Positions 489 through 14,878 of a DNA stretch of 15,659 nt are shown piece by piece. Position 1 is the stretch's first letter. Each line of letters begins with the position of its first letter. Origin of the DNA: an uncultured Phascolarctobacterium sp. (GTDB taxonomy: Bacteria > Bacillota > Negativicutes > Acidaminococcales > Acidaminococcaceae); NCBI GenBank assembly GCA_946002345.1, contig CAMFZA010000010.1, positions 1 through 15,659 on the forward strand, written 5' to 3'. A program made the translations under genes and the position numbers. Below the pieces are notes generated by a model. That model was not told the DNA's origin, searched no databases, and saw nothing but the letters and a program-made list of their open reading frames with translations.

Positions 489-1601
489 ATGAACAAGAAA
501 AAATTCATGCAATATTTAATGCTATCCTTGGCCTGCGGGACTTTTTTCGCTCTTGGTAATACTAATACCGCTTGGGCAGCATCAGCACAAATCACTGCCC
601 CGGCAGAAACGATTGTAGCGAGTCAATTAGATAATCGTTGGGATAAAAAGTTCCCGGTTAATGCTAATGTCAAGCAGCAAAAAATCACTTTCCATAATCG
701 CTTTGGCATTACCTTGGTTGCCGATATGTATGTGCCGAAAAATATGCACAAGGGCAGCAAGCTGCCTGCCATTGCTCTGGCAGGACCTTAACGGGCCGAA
801 CAGGAGCAGGCGTCCGGTCGCTATGCTCAGGAGTTGGCCAGTCGCGGCGTTGTAACCATTGCCTTTGACCCCTCCTTTACTGGTGAAAGCGCCGGCTTTC
901 CTCGCAATACTACCTCACCTGATATCAATACGGAAGACTTTTTAGCTGCAGTGGATTATTTGAGCAATAATGAGCTAGTTGATGCAGGTAAAATTGGTAT
1001 CTTAGGCATCTGCGGTTGGGGTGGATTTGCTTTGAATGCAGGTGCTCAGGACCCACGTATTAAAGGCATTGTGGCCTCCACCATGTATGATATGAGTCGC
1101 GTTATTGAAAATGGTTATTTTGATGAGGGCAAGGATCCTGAGGTATTAAAAAAGGAACGCATGGCTGCTCGCAAACAGCTGGCTGCTCAAAGAAGCTTGG
1201 ACTACAAGAATGGCTATTATGCCATGGCCGGAGGAGTGCCGTTACAGGTAACGGAAAAGGACCCACAGTTTGTGCGTGATTACCATAGCTATTATCAAAC
1301 CGAGCGTGGTCATCATGAGCGTTCCTTTGGCTCTACTACTGGTGCTACCTTGAGCTCCGTGTTGAACTTCATGAATGCACCTATTAATATGTTTATCGAT
1401 GAAATCGAAGCACCGGTACTGCTGGTACATGGGGAAAAGGCTCACTCTCGCTATTTTAGTGAGGCTGCTTATAAGAAATTAAAGGGCGACAATAAAGAGC
1501 TTTTCATTGTGCCCGGAGCGGTGCATACGGATTTGTACGATAAAATGGATGTTATTCCTTTTGACAAGATTGAGGACTTTTTTAAGAAAAGTTTAAGGTA
1601 A
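489..1601 (+). pseudogene. Secreted alpha/beta hydrolase (dienelactone-hydrolase-like), interrupted by in-frame TAA
   Basis: The reading frame is continuous from ATG 489 (Shine-Dalgarno AAAAGGAG about 7 bp upstream) to TAA 1599-1601, except for a TAA at codon 101 (789-791). The N-terminal piece has a Sec signal peptide (residues 1-30, ending TAWA) and the first strand of the fold, ending PAIALAGP. After the stop the same frame goes on with EQASGRYAQELASRG, FDPSFTGES, the nucleophile elbow GICGWGG (Cys about 175 in place of Ser, as in dienelactone hydrolases), VHGEKAHSRYF and GAVHTDLYD (likely catalytic His about 346). Family members usually have Phe-Gly-x-x-Lys after GP, so the stop replaces the Phe near the oxyanion hole. 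The spacing is kept, so this is a nonsense change rather than a net frameshift. TTG 834 is an unlikely restart. Expected length is about 370 residues. Substrate unknown. Confidence 0.85.
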
Positions 1602-1711: not shown

Positions 1712-2590
1712 ATGAACTTTCGTATTCTGCAATATTTTCTTACGGTGGCAAGGGAAGGCAATATAACCAAAGCGGCGGAGCTTTTGCATATTACTCAGCC
1801 CACCCTTAGCCGTCAGCTGATGCAGCTGGAAGAGGAAATGGGCGTGCAGCTTTTTGAGCGCAGCCAGCATCGGATTAAGCTGACTCAGGCGGGTGAGCTT
1901 TTGGTCCATCGAGGCAAGGATATCCAAGAAATGGTCGAAAAAACTGAGCTTGAACTCAAGGATACGGAGAGCAATCTGCATGGGAATATTGCCTTTGGTG
2001 CAGGTGAGCTTAATAATATTAATCTTTTGGGAGATATACTCCGTGACTTCCAAGCCCAATATCCCGAAGTAACCTTTGATATTTTTACTAATACAACGGA
2101 TATTATGCAGGAACGCATGGAAAGGGGGCTTTTAGATATTTCCTTGGCTGTGGAACCAATAGATGTGGAAAACTATGATTATATAGCTCTACCCCAAAAG
2201 GAGGTCATGGGAGTTTATATGCGGGCTGATTCACCCTTGGTAGCCAAGGCAAAAATAGCTGTGTCCGACTTAATAGGTAAGCCACTGCTTTTGCCATCCC
2301 GCTTGCAGGTGCGGAGCAAGATTTTGCATTGGCTTAGCGGCAGTATTGCCCAGATGCGCATTGTGGGAACCTGTAATCTGGTGGGTAATGCGGTGATGCT
2401 TACGGAGCGCAACGGGTATTATAGTGTGGGGGTTTGTTATATGCCTGTTTTAGAAAGCAGTGTGTGCTTTAGACCCTTAGAGCCTGCCATTGAACAAAGG
2501 GTAGTGCTGGCTTGGCGTAAGGGGGCCAAGCAAAGCAGAACTGTGCAGCGCTTTATCCAGTTTACAAAATGCTTTTTAGGCATGGAATAG
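1712..2590 (+). CDS. LysR-family transcriptional regulator
   Basis: A 292-residue, full-length LysR-type regulator. The N-terminal winged helix-turn-helix (residues 1-60) is typical: NFRILQYFLTVAREGNITKA, then AAELLHITQPTLSRQLMQLE and GVQLFERS. A linker helix (about 60-90) leads to a type-2 periplasmic-binding-protein-like effector domain (about 90-290), which normally binds a small co-inducer. The ATG follows AGAGGGTGATGTA, an acceptable ribosome binding site. The gene is just upstream of, and in the same direction as, the CMD/cupin/flavodoxin/Tat operon, and the gap between them holds a promoter inside a pair of direct repeats. It is therefore a plausible regulator of that operon (inference). 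The effector cannot be told from sequence. Many such regulators also control themselves. Confidence 0.93.
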   Translation: MNFRILQYFLTVAREGNITKAAELLHITQPTLSRQLMQLEEEMGVQLFERSQHRIKLTQAGELLVHRGKDIQEMVEKTELELKDTESNLHGNIAFGAGELNNINLLGDILRDFQAQYPEVTFDIFTNTTDIMQERMERGLLDISLAVEPIDVENYDYIALPQKEVMGVYMRADSPLVAKAKIAVSDLIGKPLLLPSRLQVRSKILHWLSGSIAQMRIVGTCNLVGNAVMLTERNGYYSVGVCYMPVLESSVCFRPLEPAIEQRVVLAWRKGAKQSRTVQRFIQFTKCFLGME

Positions 2591-2737: not shown

Positions 2738-3604
2738 ATGCAAAGTCAGATTAAACAATTATGCAAAATGACTGCCATATGCACATTATTAATGAGCACC
2801 TTAAGCTTTGGTGCTTTGATAGGAGGAAATAAGGTAATGGCTAGTAATCGTAATGATGCTGCTTGCAGGAGTATGGAACAGCTATACAACAATCCACAGC
2901 AGCGTATAGTGGCAGATGATAATGAATTGAACAGCATCATGAGCAAATTTATCTATGCTGATATCAATGAACAAAGCAAGCTGCCCGCATGGTCTAAGGA
3001 GTTGTTAAAGCTTGCTGTATTAACTGCCAATAATACGCCGGAGGAAATTCCTTTGCACGTGCAGGGTGCTTTGGAGGCAGGCGCAACGCCTACACAGATT
3101 CGGGAAACTATCATTCATACTTTGCCCTATGTGGGCATGAGCAGGGTGCAGCCAGCCTTGAAGGCCATGTATAAAGCCTTCGAGGAGAATGACGTAAAGC
3201 TGCCCTTGGCCAATAATGGTACCGTAACCGATGAGACTCGTCACGAAGCGGGCCTAGCAGTACAAAAGGAGATTTTTGGTTCTGCTATCGATAAAATGAA
3301 TGCTAGTGCCCCTGCTGACCAAAAGCATATCAATTACAATCTTTCTGCTAATTGCTTTGGGGATTTTTACACTCGTAAGGGCTTGAGCTTAAAGGAAAGG
3401 GAGTTAATCACCTTTACGGCAATCATTGCTATGGGCGGTTGTGACCCACAGGCCGAGGCTCACGTGACTGGCAATTTGGCGGTGGGCAATACTAGGCAGC
3501 AGCTTCTTGATGCGGTTACTATTGCCTTGCCATACATTGGCTATCCTATTACTTTAAATGCTATAGCAGCTATTAATTCTATTGTTCCTGCAAAGGAGCA
3601 ATAA
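2738..3604 (+). CDS. Secreted carboxymuconolactone-decarboxylase (CMD/AhpD-like) two-domain protein
   Basis: A 288-residue protein with an N-terminal signal peptide (hydrophobic stretch about 12-30, likely cleavage after V-M-A at 35) and two CMD-type helical domains, about 63-148 and 195-282. The second domain has the C-x6-H motif (Cys235, His242 in GGCDPQAEAH), the usual active-site arrangement of CMD/AhpD-like proteins. The first keeps a His (107) but has no Cys, so it is probably structural. CMD-family proteins act as decarboxylases, thiol-dependent peroxidases or redox partners. Which applies here is unknown, but the flavodoxin and iron-sulfur neighbours favour redox. The start has a very strong Shine-Dalgarno (AAGGAGGAAAAAGGAT). 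The stop is 3 bp before the cupin start, so the two are co-translated. A second Shine-Dalgarno and ATG lie inside the gene at 2821-2839, at the signal-peptide cleavage site. Confidence 0.88.
   Translation: MQSQIKQLCKMTAICTLLMSTLSFGALIGGNKVMASNRNDAACRSMEQLYNNPQQRIVADDNELNSIMSKFIYADINEQSKLPAWSKELLKLAVLTANNTPEEIPLHVQGALEAGATPTQIRETIIHTLPYVGMSRVQPALKAMYKAFEENDVKLPLANNGTVTDETRHEAGLAVQKEIFGSAIDKMNASAPADQKHINYNLSANCFGDFYTRKGLSLKERELITFTAIIAMGGCDPQAEAHVTGNLAVGNTRQQLLDAVTIALPYIGYPITLNAIAAINSIVPAKEQ
2821..2839 (+). promoter_or_regulatory. Internal Shine-Dalgarno and alternative in-frame start in the CMD gene
   Basis: AGGAGG (2821-2826) precedes an in-frame ATG (2837-2839, Met34) by 10 nt, with a further AAGG nearer to it. 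Met34 lies at the predicted cleavage site V-M-A. Initiation here would give an unexported protein nearly identical to the mature one. Confidence 0.45.
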
Positions 3605-3607
3605 AGC

Positions 3608-4114
3608 ATGAAAAAAGTATTTGCTTTGCTGATGTTAGCTATTAGTTTATTGATGCCTTCTGCCTATGCTGCAGAAGAGAATACTACTAAGGAGGAGAAA
3701 CAAATGCATCAGGAATTTACTACCGTTTTTGCAAGAGGAGTTAAAAATGACGCTTATGCCAAATATTTCGTAGGACAGAGCTATTTAAATATGCTTTCCC
3801 TAGAGCAGGTAGTGATTGGCAATGTAACCTTTGAGCCGGGCTGCCGCAATAATTGGCATATCCATCATGCTGATAAGGGTGGTGGACAAATTCTTTTGGT
3901 GACCGGTGGACGTGGCTATTATCAGGAATGGGGCAAGGAAGCAAGAGAGCTGTTGCCAGGTGACGTGGTGAATATTCCTGCTGGAGTGAAGCATTGGCAT
4001 GGTGCTGCTCCCAATAGCTGGTTTGCCCATTTGGATATTGAGGTGCCTGGTGAAAATACACGCAATGAATGGTGTGAACCAGTGGCTGAAAAGGAGTATA
4101 GATCCTTGAAATAA
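3608..4114 (+). CDS. Secreted cupin-domain protein
   Basis: 168 residues. A Sec signal peptide (1-21, cleavage after A-Y-A) is followed by a single small cupin barrel (about 65-150). Cupin motif 1 has His84 and His86 (WHIHH) with Gln94 in the place of the usual Glu. Motif 2 is GDVVNIPAGVKHWHGAAPNS, with His129 as the expected third ligand and His131 close by. A mononuclear metal site is therefore likely. Cupins of this kind are often encoded beside, or fused to, CMD proteins (family knowledge), so the two probably act on the same substrate. AAGGAG (3593-3598) inside the end of the CMD gene serves the ATG at 3608. A stronger AAGGAGG (3689-3695) lies 8 nt before an in-frame ATG at 3704 (Met33), just after the signal peptide, so a non-exported form may also be made. 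The reaction is not known. Confidence 0.88.
   Translation: MKKVFALLMLAISLLMPSAYAAEENTTKEEKQMHQEFTTVFARGVKNDAYAKYFVGQSYLNMLSLEQVVIGNVTFEPGCRNNWHIHHADKGGGQILLVTGGRGYYQEWGKEARELLPGDVVNIPAGVKHWHGAAPNSWFAHLDIEVPGENTRNEWCEPVAEKEYRSLK
3689..3706 (+). promoter_or_regulatory. Internal Shine-Dalgarno and alternative start in the cupin gene
   Basis: AAGGAGG (3689-3695), 8 nt, then ATG (3704-3706, Met33) in frame. The spacing is close to ideal and the site is as strong as that of the annotated start. It would give a 136-residue cupin without a signal peptide but with the whole barrel. Confidence 0.55.
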
Positions 4115-4243: not shown

Positions 4244-4873
4244 ATGAACAGACGCGATTTTTTGAAGACTACCGGCATTTCCTTGGCTGCATTGGCCGCT
4301 ATGTGCATGGGCTGCGGTTCTAGCAGTGCCACATCTGGCCAAACATCTGCAACAACTGTAAATGAAGGATCAAAACAAGTTATGGACACTAATAATGGTA
4401 AGAAAATTTTAATTGCCTATTATTCTTATAGTGGCAATACTAAGGCTTTGGCCGAAGAGATTCACAGACAGGCTGGTGGTGATTTAATCCCCATCGTACC
4501 TGAAACGCCTTACTCTGAAACCTATGATGTAACTGTGGCTAGAGCTAAGCAGGAGCAGCAAAGTAATGCACGTCCTGCCATTAAAACTGCAATTCCTAAT
4601 ATGGAGCAATATGATATGGTGTTTTTAGGTTATCCCAATTGGTGGGGCAGCTATCCTATGCTGATTGCTACCTTTGCAGAAAAATTCAATTTGGAGGGCA
4701 AAAAAATTGCTCCCTTCTTTACCCATGGCGGTGGAGGTGAACAGCGTTGTGCTAGTGATTTACGCAGACTGTTGCCTAAGTCCGACATTCAAGAAAGCTT
4801 GTGCTTGTCCGGTAATAGTGCACGCAGTGCTCAAGGAGAGGTAAGCACATGGCTGAAAAAGCTTGGCATGTAA
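4244..4873 (+). CDS. Tat-exported flavodoxin
   Basis: 209 residues. The N-terminus MNRRDFLKTTGISLAALAA is a twin-arginine (Tat) signal. C-M-G-C at 21-24 could be a weak lipobox, so the protein might be lipid-anchored. A low-complexity Ser/Thr linker (25-45) leads to a flavodoxin-like domain (about 53-209) with the FMN phosphate loop YYSYSGNTK (59-67), the flavin-stacking region GYPNWWGSYP (129-138) and THGGGG (160-165). Tat transport moves folded proteins, so FMN is probably loaded in the cytoplasm and carried out (inference). It would act as, or with, a one- or two-electron carrier outside the membrane. Met47 precedes the flavodoxin core. The 3' end overlaps the NapH-like gene by 25 bp, and tatA/tatC lie downstream in the same operon. 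The ATG has GAGGAGGAAAACTA before it. Confidence 0.92.
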   Translation: MNRRDFLKTTGISLAALAAMCMGCGSSSATSGQTSATTVNEGSKQVMDTNNGKKILIAYYSYSGNTKALAEEIHRQAGGDLIPIVPETPYSETYDVTVARAKQEQQSNARPAIKTAIPNMEQYDMVFLGYPNWWGSYPMLIATFAEKFNLEGKKIAPFFTHGGGGEQRCASDLRRLLPKSDIQESLCLSGNSARSAQGEVSTWLKKLGM

Positions 4874-5694
4874 TTGGCTATTTACTTGGCTTTCTATTAT
4901 TCTACGAGCCCTTTATGTTTTTCCAAAGGATTACTGGTAGTTTTCTTGTGGAAACAGGCTTCACCTCCATTCATGTGCCCTGCGCTCGCATTCCCTTGGC
5001 TAATATCCTGACTGGGCAGTGGCAGTATAGCGGGCCAACATCACTATTCTTTTGTCTATTGCTAATTGTGGTTTCCCTATGGTTCGGTCCGCTTTTTTGC
5101 GGCTGGCTCTGCCCTGCGGGAGCCTTTAGTGAATATTTGAGCAGGCTGCTACCTGATAAATATAAAATTAATTGGGCACAGTTAGTGCCGCTTGTGCCCC
5201 TGCGGTATGGCTTTTTCCTAGGCTTTCTTGGCTCGATCATTTTAGGCTTAGGCATTCCCTGTAGCTATTGCAATTATTATGCTTTAGAGATCTTCGTGGG
5301 CTATGTGCATACCGGGCAGCTATTAAGTGGCTCCCTTTCTCTGCTTATGACCTTTGTGGTGAGCAATATATTTTTGGGCCTTTTTACTAAGGGTGGTCGT
5401 GGCTACTGCAATTTGCTTTGTCCGGTGGGGACAATGTGTTCTCTCATGCATGTGCTGGGGCAGCTTGTTCCGGGGGCCTTTGGGATGCAGGTTGATAAAA
5501 AGTTATGCGTGGGCTGTGGCTTGTGCAGCAAAAAATGTCCTATGCAAGCAGTTTCGATAAATCAAGGCAAAGCACAGATAAATCGCCATCACTGCATCGT
5601 TTGTGGTCAGTGCAGGCAAGCATGTCCTCGCAAGGCGATTGCCTATACTAATGGTCTGCACAGGGAGGTGGCTAAGCACGATGTTCAAGAATAA
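4849..5694 (+). CDS. NapH/NosR-like membrane 4Fe-4S electron-transfer protein
   Basis: 281 residues with about four or five membrane segments (roughly 8-28, 64-82, 118-136, 160-180) and a C-terminal ferredoxin domain. It has the two C-x3-C-P motifs of the NapH/NosR/CcoG group (Cys84/Cys88 and Cys187/Cys191), an extra CSYC (138-141), and two 4Fe-4S binding motifs (Cys220, 223, 226, 230 and Cys249, 252, 255, 259). Such proteins move electrons between the quinone pool or cytoplasmic donors and periplasmic redox partners. The exported flavodoxin, whose gene overlaps this one by 25 bp, is the likely partner (inference). The start ATG at 4849 lies within the flavodoxin gene behind AAGGAGAGG. The 3' end overlaps the next small gene by 14 bp, so translation is coupled. 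Confidence 0.9.
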   Translation: MAEKAWHVIGYLLGFLLFYEPFMFFQRITGSFLVETGFTSIHVPCARIPLANILTGQWQYSGPTSLFFCLLLIVVSLWFGPLFCGWLCPAGAFSEYLSRLLPDKYKINWAQLVPLVPLRYGFFLGFLGSIILGLGIPCSYCNYYALEIFVGYVHTGQLLSGSLSLLMTFVVSNIFLGLFTKGGRGYCNLLCPVGTMCSLMHVLGQLVPGAFGMQVDKKLCVGCGLCSKKCPMQAVSINQGKAQINRHHCIVCGQCRQACPRKAIAYTNGLHREVAKHDVQE

Positions 5695-5917
5695 TTTGCG
5701 AAATTTTTATATGACGGCTGGAGCTGCTGGCTCAGTTCTCATTCCTCAAGCTATGGTCAACACTTGGCCCAATTTTTTCGCCACTGTTGCTCCCTTGACT
5801 AGCAATGCTTTGCCGGCCTGCACTGGTAGCTGTGGGGCTTGCGGTGGTACTTGTGTGACTAGCATAATTATGCTGCTGTGGTTAGGCAGCTGTAAATATA
5901 TTAATAAGAAAAGTTAG
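5681..5917 (+). CDS. Small Cys-rich membrane protein, unrecognised
   Basis: A 78-residue protein that I do not recognise. The ATG at 5681 sits behind GGGAGGTGG inside the end of the NapH-like gene, overlapping it by 14 bp. It has a moderately hydrophobic N-terminal half (about 12-38), a tight Cys/Gly cluster C47-x3-C51-x2-C54-x3-C58 (ACTGSCGACGGTC), and a hydrophobic segment (59-70) followed by Cys71 and a basic end (K72, K76, K77). Four cysteines so spaced could hold an iron-sulfur cluster or metal, or form redox disulfides. Being locked between the NapH-like gene and tatA by overlap and a 12-bp gap argues for a real gene and a role in the same electron-transfer or export unit. Function not assigned. 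Confidence 0.75.
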   Translation: MFKNNLRNFYMTAGAAGSVLIPQAMVNTWPNFFATVAPLTSNALPACTGSCGACGGTCVTSIIMLLWLGSCKYINKKS

Positions 5918-5929
5918 GAGGTATTGAAG

Positions 5930-6118
5930 ATGTTTGGATTAGGTTTACCGGAGCTGCTTTTGATTCTGGTGATAGGCTTGGTGTTCTTTGGGCCGGGCAA
6001 GCTGCCCGATGTGGGTAAGGCCATTGGTAAGAGCATGCGTGAATTCAAAACAGCTCTCAACGATGTGAAGCCGGAAATTACGGAAGAAAAAGCTGTGGAA
6101 ACGGGCAAGGAAAAATAA
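5930..6118 (+). CDS. tatA: Sec-independent (twin-arginine) translocase subunit TatA
   Basis: 62 residues. A short N-terminal membrane helix (about 6-20, with Glu8) is followed by the FGPGKLP hinge (20-26), an amphipathic helix (VGKAIGKSMREFK, 28-40) and a charged tail: the standard TatA build. The ATG at 5930 is 8 nt after a perfect AGGAGG (5916-5921). The TTG at 5924 would be only 2 nt from it and is not the start. TatA oligomerises to form the passage for folded proteins with a Tat signal. No TatB-like gene is seen, so this is a minimal TatA-TatC system in which TatA may also do TatB's work. tatC starts 12 bp downstream. Confidence 0.95.
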   Translation: MFGLGLPELLLILVIGLVFFGPGKLPDVGKAIGKSMREFKTALNDVKPEITEEKAVETGKEK

Positions 6119-6130
6119 GGGTGTAGGCAA

Positions 6131-6877
6131 ATGGATGGCATGGAGGTTAAGCTAACAGCAGAGCCGTGGAGAGATAATATTGATAGGGACATGAGCTTGG
6201 CAGAGCATTTGACGGAGCTGCGAAGCTGTTTATTCAAGGCTGGAGCTGCTTTAATAGCAGGAACTGCTGTGAGCTTTTATTATCTAGAGTATATCATTAA
6301 GACTTTGACTGCTCCCGTAGGTCAATTATATTATTTGCGTCCGGCAGAGGCCTTTATGGTCTACTTAAAAATCGCTTTACTAGCTGGCTTGATATTAGCT
6401 TCGCCCATGGTGCTTTACCAGCTGTATAGCTTTGTAAGACCGGCGTTAACCCTGCGGGAAAAGCATTATGCTCTCTGCACCATTCCTATAATTATAGTGC
6501 TTTTTCTTGGGGGGATGCTCTTTTCTTACTATTTTGTGTTTCCTAGGGCTGTGGAATTCTTTTTAGGCTTTGGTGCTGAGCATGTCAGTCCTTTGATTTC
6601 CATGGAAAGCTACTTGGATTTTATGTTGATGCTGGTAGTGCCCTTTGGCTTTGTTTTTAATATACCGGTTGTGCTATTGTTCTTGGTGTATGTAAAGCTT
6701 GTGCCTGTGCAGGCGTTAAGTAAATATCAAAAGCATGTGATTTTGGCGGCCTTTATTGTGGCAGCTTTGATTACGCCCACACCAGATATTATCACGCAAA
6801 GCCTTTTGGCTCTGCCCATGGTTGTGCTTTATGAGGTGAGCTTGGTGATGTGCAGGTTTTTGCTTGCTAAGAATTAA
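6131..6877 (+). CDS. tatC: Sec-independent (twin-arginine) translocase subunit TatC
   Basis: 248 residues and six membrane segments (about 34-53, 70-92, 109-130, 158-178, 190-208, 213-236). The N-terminal motif HLTELR (26-31) and the conserved first-periplasmic-loop/second-helix region with P-A-L-T-L-R-E-K (about 104-111) are diagnostic. TatC recognises the RR signal peptide and recruits TatA. It is the last gene of the operon that encodes a Tat substrate (the flavodoxin), so it may be a dedicated translocase, although other Tat genes elsewhere in the genome cannot be excluded. The ribosome binding site AAGGGTG/TAGG is modest; a second in-frame ATG 9 bp later (6140) is possible. A strong terminator follows after about 50 bp. 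Confidence 0.95.
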   Translation: MDGMEVKLTAEPWRDNIDRDMSLAEHLTELRSCLFKAGAALIAGTAVSFYYLEYIIKTLTAPVGQLYYLRPAEAFMVYLKIALLAGLILASPMVLYQLYSFVRPALTLREKHYALCTIPIIIVLFLGGMLFSYYFVFPRAVEFFLGFGAEHVSPLISMESYLDFMLMLVVPFGFVFNIPVVLLFLVYVKLVPVQALSKYQKHVILAAFIVAALITPTPDIITQSLLALPMVVLYEVSLVMCRFLLAKN

Positions 6878-6926
6878 AAATGGGCGAAGCTAGATGTGCC
6901 ATAATTTCTGCGAATTAATAAGTCAG

Positions 6927-6964
6927 AAAAAGAGCTGAAGCAATGTGTGCAGCAGCTCTTTTTT
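6927..6964 (+). terminator. Terminator after tatC
   Basis: The stem GAGCTG (6932-6937) / CAGCTC (6953-6958) is extended by an A-run (6927-6931) opposite the T-run (6959-6964). The loop is 15 nt. It closes the redox/Tat operon. Confidence 0.8.
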
Positions 6965-6968
6965 GCTG

Positions 6969-13098: not shown

Positions 13099-14511
13099 TT
13101 ATATATTTAAGTAAGGCAGCAGTGCCTCAAACAGCTTGTCCAGTGCTGGGTAGAGACGGGCATCCTCAATGCCGGTGTAATTCATGAGCATGGTATGACT
13201 GTTGTCGCCAAGCTTGTTGTGATAATAGTCCGAGAGGAATTTTATTTGGAGGCCTGCTTTAAGGGCCACTTCTCGCAGCTGGCTATCGCTGGCGTTGGTC
13301 GCTAAATGCAGTAAAAAATGCAGGCCGCTATCTTCGCCCTCAACCTTGAGAGCTTTGGCAGCAGGACACTGGGCCAGATATTGGAGCAGATGATCTCGTT
13401 TGTTACGATAATAGGTGCGCATGCGGTTGATGTGACGTTCAAAATAGCCGTCTTCAATAAATTTGGCCAGGGTAAATTGTTCGAAATTGGATACTGTGCA
13501 GGAATAAAAGCCCAGTTTGGCATAAAAAAGTGAGGACAGATGGGGCGGCAAAACAATATAGCTAATGCGGAAGAGGGGAGCGAGTGTATTAGATAAGGAG
13601 TTGATGGAAATTACATTTTCCGACCTATCAATGCTTTGCAGGGGTGGGATGGGCTTGCCGAAAAGACGGAATTCGCAGTCGTAGTCATCTTCGATGATGT
13701 AACGACTGCTTTTTTGACTGGCCCAATGCAAAAGCTCGTAGCGGCGGCTTACCGGTGTAGTGATGCCTGTGGGGAATTGATGGGAGGGGGTGATGTGCAG
13801 GATATCTGCACCACTGCTTTCCAAAACTTCAGTCTGAACGCCCTGCTCATCCATGGGTAAATAGCGGCAAAAAACGTCATTGGTGCGATAAATGGCAGCA
13901 AGCTGAGGGTAGCCGGGGTCCTCTAAGGCATAAATGTGACTGCGTCCTAAAAGCTGCACGATGAGATTATAGAGGGTTTGGGTACCAGAGCCGATGATGA
14001 TTTGTTCCGGGGCAACATTTAAGCCGCGAAATTGGTATAAATGCTTGACCAGGGCCTGGCGTAGAGGCAGAACACCTCCTGTGGCCGTATCACTAATCAG
14101 CGCATGTTCATCAGCACTGGTCAGGGTGTTGCGCAAAAGACGGGCCCAGGTGTTGTAGGGAAAGGTGTCCGGAGGCACACTGCTTTTAGCAAAGCTCAAA
14201 ATGGGAGGTGCGTCCTGAGCGGCAGGCTGCGGCGTTTGCTGGGGCTTGGGCGCAGGGATCTGTGCCTGCTGCAGAGTGGAGACAAAATAACCGCGGCGTG
14301 GCTCGGAAAAGATATAGCCCTCCACCGCCAGCTGGGCATAGGCATTTTCCACAGTAATGAGACTGATGCCTAGATTTTTAGCTAGCATACGTTTAGAGGG
14401 GAGTTTTTCCTGAGCTTTGAGGGTACCCTCTAAAATATCTTGGCGAATGCATTTGTATAAATGCATGTAGATGCATTCTCCTTGTAGGTTGGCAAAGCTA
14501 TAGGTGAGCAT
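13099..14511 (-). CDS. pdxR: MocR/PdxR-type GntR regulator with aminotransferase-like domain, PLP lysine replaced by Asn
   Basis: 470 residues when started at ATG 14511, 6 nt after a strong GGAGG; the frame stays open upstream but has no better start. The N-terminal GntR winged helix (about 10-80) includes KLPSKRMLAKNLGIS (37-51) and EGYIFSEPRRGYF (64-76). A Pro/Gln/Ala linker (84-102) leads to a fold-type I aminotransferase-like domain (103-470) with GSGTQTL (174-180), PSHQFPTG (242-249) and IIEDDYDCEF (272-281). The block that should read SxSK, whose Lys forms the Schiff base with PLP, reads SLSNTLAP: Asn308, codon AAT at 13588-13590 on the + strand as ATT. Divergence from a pdxS fragment, with shared repeats between, fits PdxR, activator of PLP synthesis. 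Without the Lys it may no longer sense PLP in the usual way. Confidence 0.88.
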   Translation of the reverse strand: MLTYSFANLQGECIYMHLYKCIRQDILEGTLKAQEKLPSKRMLAKNLGISLITVENAYAQLAVEGYIFSEPRRGYFVSTLQQAQIPAPKPQQTPQPAAQDAPPILSFAKSSVPPDTFPYNTWARLLRNTLTSADEHALISDTATGGVLPLRQALVKHLYQFRGLNVAPEQIIIGSGTQTLYNLIVQLLGRSHIYALEDPGYPQLAAIYRTNDVFCRYLPMDEQGVQTEVLESSGADILHITPSHQFPTGITTPVSRRYELLHWASQKSSRYIIEDDYDCEFRLFGKPIPPLQSIDRSENVISINSLSNTLAPLFRISYIVLPPHLSSLFYAKLGFYSCTVSNFEQFTLAKFIEDGYFERHINRMRTYYRNKRDHLLQYLAQCPAAKALKVEGEDSGLHFLLHLATNASDSQLREVALKAGLQIKFLSDYYHNKLGDNSHTMLMNYTGIEDARLYPALDKLFEALLPYLNI

Positions 14512-14525
14512 GTTTATCCTCCATC

Positions 14526-14643
14526 TGGTATTATAATCTTTATAAAAAATGAGTATATGTATATATTCAGATGGTATTATAATACTACCTAATGGCGGCA
14601 GAGTAAAGCAAAAAACATGTAAAACTGCTGCAAGTATTATAAT
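14526..14643. repeat. Three direct repeats in the pdxR-pdxS intergenic region (putative PdxR sites)
   Basis: TGGTATTATAAT occurs at 14526-14537 and 14572-14583 (exact, 46 bp apart), and its GTATTATAAT core again at 14634-14643, next to the pdxS ribosome binding site. Each copy contains TATAAT on the + strand and ATTATA, so -10 elements for both divergent genes are embedded: 14535-14530 for pdxR and 14578-14583 for pdxS. MocR regulators bind direct repeats in such divergent regions (family knowledge). Confidence 0.6.
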
Positions 14644-14656
14644 GGAGGGATTTTCG

Positions 14657-14878
14657 ATGAATGAAAGATATACATTAAATGCACAGCTGGCCCAAATGCT
14701 CAAGGGCGGGGTAATTATGGATGTAACCAATCCTGAGCAGGCACGCATTGCTGAAGCTGCAGGTGCTTGTGCTGTTATGGCCTTGGAAAAGATTCCGGCG
14801 GATATTCGTGCGGCCGGAGGTGTGGCCCGCATTGCAAACATTCTTTTTGGTATATTTTCAGGTAGAATAAAATTTTAG
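14657..14878 (+). pseudogene. pdxS: Truncated pdxS (PLP synthase lyase subunit), N-terminal fragment
   Basis: The first 60 residues are a clear PdxS N-terminus: [40 protein letters not shown] and [18 protein letters not shown] (43-60), including the family's conserved Asp22 and the [10 protein letters not shown] block. From residue 61 on, the sequence ([13 protein letters not shown]) has no likeness to PdxS and stops at 73, against about 290 residues in the full TIM-barrel enzyme. It cannot make PLP from ribose 5-phosphate, glyceraldehyde 3-phosphate and ammonia. The ribosome binding site GGAGGG (14644-14649, 7 nt before ATG) and promoter region are intact. No pdxT follows in the window. The break near 14837 is probably a deletion or rearrangement joint. 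Confidence 0.9.

Follow-up and report, generated by a model that had tools for sequence, protein, structure and literature searches.

A conserved gene cluster in Phascolarctobacterium links a Tat-signal flavodoxin to a membrane iron-sulfur protein, a small cysteine-rich peptide and TatAC

The gene cluster and its products

The DNA analysed here (the window) is a stretch of 15,659 nucleotides from an uncultured gut Phascolarctobacterium sp., and it constitutes contig C10 of the metagenome-assembled genome G000, which comprises 1.75 Mb in 263 contigs and is 84.9% complete. Five genes, designated FLD, FES, CYS, TatA and TatC, lie together on the + strand between positions 4244 and 6877, joining a flavodoxin that carries a twin-arginine translocation (Tat) signal to a membrane iron-sulfur protein, a small cysteine-rich peptide and the components of a Tat translocase:

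4244..4873, + strand: FLD, a Flavodoxin_4 protein with a Tat signal, probably lipid-anchored and without a flavinylation-like motif
4849..5694, + strand: FES, a membrane 4Fe-4S protein with Fer4_5 and two Fer4 motifs and the extra invariant cysteines C45, C138 and C141
5681..5917, + strand: CYS, a 78-amino-acid membrane peptide with the pattern C-x3-C-x2-C-x3-C
5930..6118, + strand: TatA, identified by family profiles, start probably ATG 5930
6131..6877, + strand: TatC, the only TatC found in G000

Reading frames and family profiles confirmed this set, as described in a first-pass annotation of the window, together with the overlaps of 25 bp between FLD and FES and of 14 bp between FES and CYS. 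The TatA start at TTG 5924 is probably mistaken, ATG 5930 being the most likely start, which leaves gaps of 12 bp from CYS to TatA and 12 bp from TatA to TatC. Shine-Dalgarno-like stretches, with bases read by eye, precede all five starts and are weak for TatC. TatA scored 67.5 bits against TatA_B_E (cut-off 21) and 69.9 bits against NF011430 (cut-off 62), and TatC scored 211.4 bits against PF00902 (cut-off 25.1) and 187.4 bits against TIGR00945 (cut-off 132.7), while the TatB model reached 48.5 bits, below its cut-off of 56.5, as expected for a minimal TatAC system without TatB.

FLD passed the gathering cut-off of Flavodoxin_4 (PF12682) with 114.7 bits against 24, and it is matched by the solved flavoproteins 4ici and 3klb. 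The flavin-binding loops are kept in the sequence as SYSGNT (SxSGNT), NWWG and THGGGG. Its N-terminus, MNRRDFLKTTGISLAALAAMCMGCGSS, contains an RRDFLK motif within a signal of the form MNRRDFLKTTG...CMGC. FLD is the sole match to TIGR01409 in G000 at E ≤ 1 and lies above the curated cut-off, in support of the twin-arginine signal that had been read on it earlier. It also ranked first in G000 for PF10518 (E 0.0023, below the cut-off of that model), with one weak second match at E 0.94. Judged by this signal, FLD is probably not cytoplasmic, a location that would have contradicted the first-pass view of an exported flavodoxin, and it is reasonable to suppose that it is loaded with flavin mononucleotide (FMN) and exported folded. 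Among 1021 homologues of FLD, 120 were examined, and 112 of these, including one from P. succinatutens, have an RR motif near the N-terminus; a PROSITE-like lipobox pattern is present in 76 of the 120 but not in FLD itself. One examined homologue lacks its N-terminus, and another, P0061, carries the RR further in. P0061 is a protein of 302 amino acids in which the frame of a CYS peptide continues into that of a Tat-signal flavodoxin; since the Tat signal is intact in the middle of the protein, read-through of adjoining genes is likelier than a true CYS-FLD fusion. A second flavodoxin in G000 (L102:2462-3097, contig C154) looks membrane-anchored.

Conservation of the cluster in the family

Conservation was assessed in a sample of 59 Acidaminococcaceae genomes (Phascolarctobacterium and kin), many of them incomplete. 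Relatives of FES at E ≤ 1e-35 were found at 22 loci in 21 genomes, and all 22 neighbourhoods were inspected; the G071 locus was viewed only through record L142, matched to it by its coordinates, and contig ends truncate the G026 and G004 neighbourhoods. FES adjoins a flavodoxin gene at 12 of the 22 loci, in G000, G003, G002, G016, G028, G011 and six genomes of a group termed g2 (G007, G024, G033, G067, G068 and G069). TatC lies within 8 kb of 11 of these 12 FES-FLD loci and on the contig of none of the other ten FES loci (Fisher p 3.4e-5, with relatives that are not independent); the linkage in relatives that the first-pass annotation had put at stake is therefore present. The sole FES-FLD locus without a nearby TatC is that of G011, a genome in which no TatC match was found.

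Two layouts were distinguished. In the first, FES, CYS, TatA and TatC run in one direction together with a Tat-signal FLD, as seen in G000, G003, G016, G028 and also G002, where the five genes are spread over 7 kb; in G003, the contig stops within TatC. In the second, found in the six g2 genomes, FES-CYS-FLD is accompanied by TatC on the opposite strand, and the flavodoxin is a Sec-type lipoprotein. The conserved co-occurrence of all five genes, proposed earlier as a check, was thus borne out in G003, G002, G016 and G028, and this association is beyond chance. Both the linkage and the Tat signal are well supported.

FES-CYS pairs without a flavodoxin occupy the remaining 10 of the 22 family loci, and this distribution would also fit FLD being an exported flavoenzyme, such as a quinone or oxidant reductase in a LysR-controlled envelope stress set, with FES-CYS only loosely tied to it or serving other partners. 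The genes upstream of the cluster lend themselves to this idea, and they are given here with the downstream hairpin:

1712..2590, + strand: LysR-type regulator, a close relative of which adjoins the cluster in G002, G016 and G028
2738..3604, + strand: CMD-family protein with two CMD domains and a hydrophobic N-terminus, putatively exported
3608..4114, + strand: cupin protein with a hydrophobic N-terminus, putatively exported
about 6921..6967, + strand: terminator-like hairpin downstream of TatC (-20.2 kcal/mol, z -3.44)

A hydrolase gene is also near, and CMD-family proteins are reported to respond to hypochlorous acid in other bacteria. However, the linkage of FES to FLD recurs at 12 loci and involves two FLD clades whose union the data reject, and the FES and FLD frames overlap in the window. 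We therefore regard the flavoenzyme explanation as rather doubtful. The CMD and cupin proteins had also been suggested as end users of the electrons, a suggestion that is now weak, since both genes are near only 6 of the 12 FES-FLD loci compared with 9 of 12 for a Tat-signal DUF362 protein that is absent from the window.

An alpha/beta hydrolase (window 490-1601, + strand) has a signal-like N-terminus and an in-frame TAA interruption at 789-791. Farther along, a frame at 14549-14878 on the + strand starts like PdxS and seems to break off, and opposite it lies a regulator-aminotransferase-like frame (13099-14841); both names come from reading the translations.

Origin of the Tat signal on the flavodoxin

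Export signals were surveyed in 48 flavodoxins from the inspected loci, 44 of them from the family, with a rough pattern rule and hand correction of three of the 48. By this rule, the 44 family flavodoxins comprise 22 Sec-lipoprotein-like, 8 Sec-anchored, 5 Tat and 9 unsignalled proteins, so that 35 of 44 carry an export signal, 30 of them of the Sec type. The first-pass annotation had taken export itself as the oddity of this flavodoxin; in this family it is the Tat signal that is odd. The five Tat-signal flavodoxins form one clade (support 97/77), which is joined by the Sec-lipoprotein sequence of G011 (99/96), indicating that Tat most likely replaced Sec on a flavodoxin that was already exported. 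The g2 flavodoxins form a separate clade, and uniting them with the Tat-signal set was rejected (approximately unbiased test, p 0.0007), whereas the corresponding grouping of FES was not (p 0.135). Because the FES grouping was not rejected, FES-CYS may have met a flavodoxin once, with the flavodoxin exchanged later.

Exclusivity of TatAC

TatC was found in 38 of the 59 family genomes, and a Tat-signal match (E ≤ 0.05) was present in 33 of these 38 and in none of the 21 genomes lacking TatC. Of 49 such matches, 32 lie within 10 kb of TatC. As Tat-signal matches follow TatC in both presence and proximity, Tat in this family looks to be maintained to serve a single substrate or a handful, which are often encoded nearby.

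In G000, TatAC looks private to FLD, as had been proposed, with a lone TatC and one Tat-signal match above cut-off, while privacy does not extend to G028, which has a second TatAC. At 84.9% completeness, G000 yielded neither a second TatC nor a second complete Tat locus, and weak signals or missing contigs could hide further Tat-signal proteins. Alternatively, TatAC could be the general Tat machinery of the cell, located here by coincidence and serving other substrates too, for example the DUF362 protein. The incompleteness of G000 leaves room for this, any other Tat substrate in that genome would have to use the cluster TatC, and 17 of the 49 family matches have no TatC within 10 kb. The Tat-signal DUF362 protein, moreover, is a usual neighbour in relatives, near 9 of the 12 FES-FLD loci (cut by a contig end in G069), and this speaks against exclusivity of TatAC; the window, G003 and G011 showed no such gene close to the cluster. 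Seven of the nine near-locus DUF362 proteins were aligned with two other family sequences.

Set against a general machine are the single Tat-signal match in G000 and the retention of the cluster TatC where another lineage of TatC is or was present. G028 keeps its cluster copy beside a second TatC that is sister to the lone TatC of G001; the same tree, which carried long-branch warnings, places the window TatC and its relatives with the TatCs of g2 (support 95/92). G003, the closest relative, likewise keeps the cluster copy and has a truncated TatC-like frame (L217:1312-1872, contig C15 of G003) that is 67% identical to the G001 TatC over residues 91-172, suggesting that the cluster copy may have persisted as an older TatC degenerated. 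On balance, we consider a general Tat machine unlikely, though a serious contender, and tentatively favour TatAC dedicated to FLD. A third kind of Tat locus (L112:3529-7444, L125:3643-7334 and similar) places a Tat-signal protein of ~361 amino acids a few kb before TatA/TatC, with a metallo-beta-lactamase fold where tested (L112).

FES and CYS as a membrane electron path

FES contains the Pfam domains Fer4_5 and Fer4. Its description as NapH-like is true in a loose sense, but NapH proper was ruled out, both by TIGR02163 (NapH/MauN), against which FES scored 58.1 bits with a cut-off of 213.05, and by C138 and C141. For comparison with other NapH-like proteins, nine loci were tried and five proteins aligned; C138/C141 are absent in all five, and C45 is present in two. 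All 25 rows of an alignment of FES and its relatives retain C45, C138 and C141. An AlphaFold model built from 25 sequences shows membrane helices and a ferredoxin domain, with a mean predicted local distance difference test score (pLDDT) of 82.6, falling to 61-75 across the first 40 residues. By analogy with NapH, we prefer four membrane crossings, which would place both ends, C84/C88, C187/C191 and the ferredoxin domain in the cytoplasm and C45 and C138-x2-C141 outside. A structure search with this model gave one match at E ≤ 0.001 (E 9.9e-4, TMq 0.20), and Foldseek and PDB sequence searches otherwise returned ferredoxins; the well-fitting matches covered a ferredoxin domain, and none of the solved structures searched corresponded to the membrane part.

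Neither Pfam nor NCBIfam gave a match to CYS, and membership in a known small cysteine-rich family was rejected, with no match for CYS or for the relatives scanned. Its four cysteines are conserved in all 18 rows of one alignment. A survey of 50 loci with a loose pattern located a CYS-type peptide just downstream of FES in 30 loci and none in 18, and no FES frame was recognised in the remaining two; the 30 loci include Bacillota, Synergistota, Actinomycetota, Chloroflexota and archaea. Elsewhere, FES-CYS often adjoins an exported-looking protein of ~160-210 amino acids (as at L115:6039-7557, L116:5959-7473, L118:6163-7676 and L161:4437-6165), without a Pfam match in the three tested, sometimes beside a TonB receptor, which is upstream in L116. 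A second FES-CYS pair in G000 (L101:890-1898, contig C14) has no adjoining flavodoxin.

The outward-facing cysteines of FES and CYS could form disulfides rather than bind clusters, in which case FES-CYS would be a thiol-disulfide relay like DsbD or ScsB, and FLD a separate passenger. However, no thioredoxin-fold partner was found among the cluster families scanned, and a flavodoxin recurs beside FES, making such a relay very improbable.

Flavinylation and other Tat-exported flavoproteins

Huang et al. 2024 (PMC11334425) demonstrated covalent flavinylation for some members of the Flavodoxin_4 and FMN_red families and stated that signs of it occur in extracytosolic flavodoxins, a feature that they connect with preventing flavin loss. 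With a motif pattern, no motif-like match was found in any of the 48 flavodoxins, FLD included, and FLD has no insert at SYSGNT, between the first strand and helix, where the flavinylation motif would be sited. ApbE (PF02424) had no match in G000 at its 84.9% completeness, nor was it found in any of the five genomes with a Tat-signal FLD, while it is present in 25 of the 59 family genomes.

A Tat-signal FMN_red protein was found in 13 genomes (five typed by Pfam, the rest by similarity), again with no motif-like match in any of the 13, and in 11 it is on the TatC contig and within 10 kb of TatC. ApbE is present in 3 of 16 genomes with Tat-exported flavoproteins and in 22 of 43 others (Fisher p 0.038), a difference that we do not use as proof because genomes of one genus are not independent. 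In other genera, Tat-signal FMN_red proteins stand beside TatA and TatC (L104:5683-8122, L189:6849-9288, L190:1103-3542, L201:127-2528, L109:6023-7833), and many of those adjoining TatAC have an LSGC lipobox.

Proposed mechanism

We propose, with confidence that is evenly balanced, that a dedicated TatAC exports a folded, probably FMN-loaded FLD, which FES-CYS reduces across the membrane. FLD would fold and probably bind FMN in the cytoplasm, and the adjoining TatAC would carry it out, to be held, probably by a lipid anchor, at the outer face of the inner membrane. On the inside, FES would accept electrons from ferredoxin or quinol through its two Fer4 clusters and send them along a membrane cysteine relay, by way of C84/C88 and C187/C191 and then C45 and C138-x2-C141, to CYS. 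The four cysteines of CYS, facing outward, would hand the electrons to FLD, which would pass them to an acceptor outside. Sequence shows the gene set, the Tat signal, the conserved linkage, the single TatC and the lack of both a motif and an ApbE match. We infer FMN loading, the lipid anchor, the topology, the direction of electron flow and the acceptor, and the donor and every transfer step are drawn by analogy from what is known of NapH and NosR. Because FLD has no motif and no ApbE was found, Tat export of the loaded protein would do the job that covalent flavinylation does elsewhere.

Several observations weigh against this proposal. RK, RH or RC replaces RR in 6 of the 120 examined FLD homologues, and the signal of the window FLD itself fails the lipobox pattern, with Cys at -3. 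In the hydropathy scan, FES 189-207 stands out as a further candidate segment, which as a fifth crossing would place the ferredoxin domain on the outside. C51 of CYS is missing in 1 of 26 rows of a second alignment, and the structure model of CYS is poor (pLDDT 58.5) and unfit for a fold search. ApbE is missing in all seven genomes of the window's genus, including those without a Tat-signal FLD, and in six relatives the flavodoxin that accompanies FES-CYS is a Sec-type lipoprotein, with no ApbE in three of the six. These Sec-type proteins indicate that a flavodoxin lacking the motif can do without Tat for its export. Exporting an already loaded flavoprotein through Tat is thus a plausible substitute for flavinylation, but not the only one.

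More broadly, and tentatively, with somewhat less than even confidence, export of a flavoprotein already carrying its flavin non-covalently, through its own TatAC, may be an alternative to ApbE for both Flavodoxin_4 and FMN_red proteins, two families that became ApbE substrates elsewhere, and FES-CYS may be an undescribed membrane electron wire, shared across phyla, with an exchangeable outer partner.

Relation to known systems

How cells keep a loosely bound flavin working outside the cytoplasm has one published answer in covalent attachment by ApbE. If the mechanism proposed here is true, a further answer would lie in a flavodoxin that is exported by Tat, manages without ApbE and comes with a translocase and a membrane partner of its own. 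FES-CYS hints at a route for electrons through the membrane in which the CYS part carries no Pfam or NCBIfam name. No paper was found, in a search that covered few subscription papers, that names an exported flavodoxin with its own Tat genes or the FLD-FES-CYS-TatAC set. The cluster is real, conserved and unusual in that two known kinds of system, a TatAC linked to its substrate and transmembrane electron transfer of the NapH-like type, meet around a flavodoxin that would hold its flavin non-covalently.

Each part of this combination has known counterparts. The ApbE-flavinylated extracytosolic Flavodoxin_4 and FMN_red proteins (PMC11334425) place the same two families outside the cytoplasm, whereas the proteins considered here have no motif (0/48 flavodoxins and 0/13 Tat-signal FMN_red), no ApbE in the Tat-signal FLD genomes and TatAC alongside. 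In the NapH-like flavinylation systems, NosR and PceC (Meheust et al. 2021, PMC8238504), a Fer4_5 protein is proposed to move electrons to a flavin on the outside, as here, but in this cluster a separate flavodoxin takes the place of the FMN-binding domain, and C138/C141 and the four-cysteine peptide are additional. In phoD-tatAdCd and ywbN-tatAyCy of Bacillus subtilis and fepABC-tat of Staphylococcus, TatAC adjoins the gene of its substrate, as it does here, where the substrate is instead a flavodoxin with its own membrane Fe-S partner.

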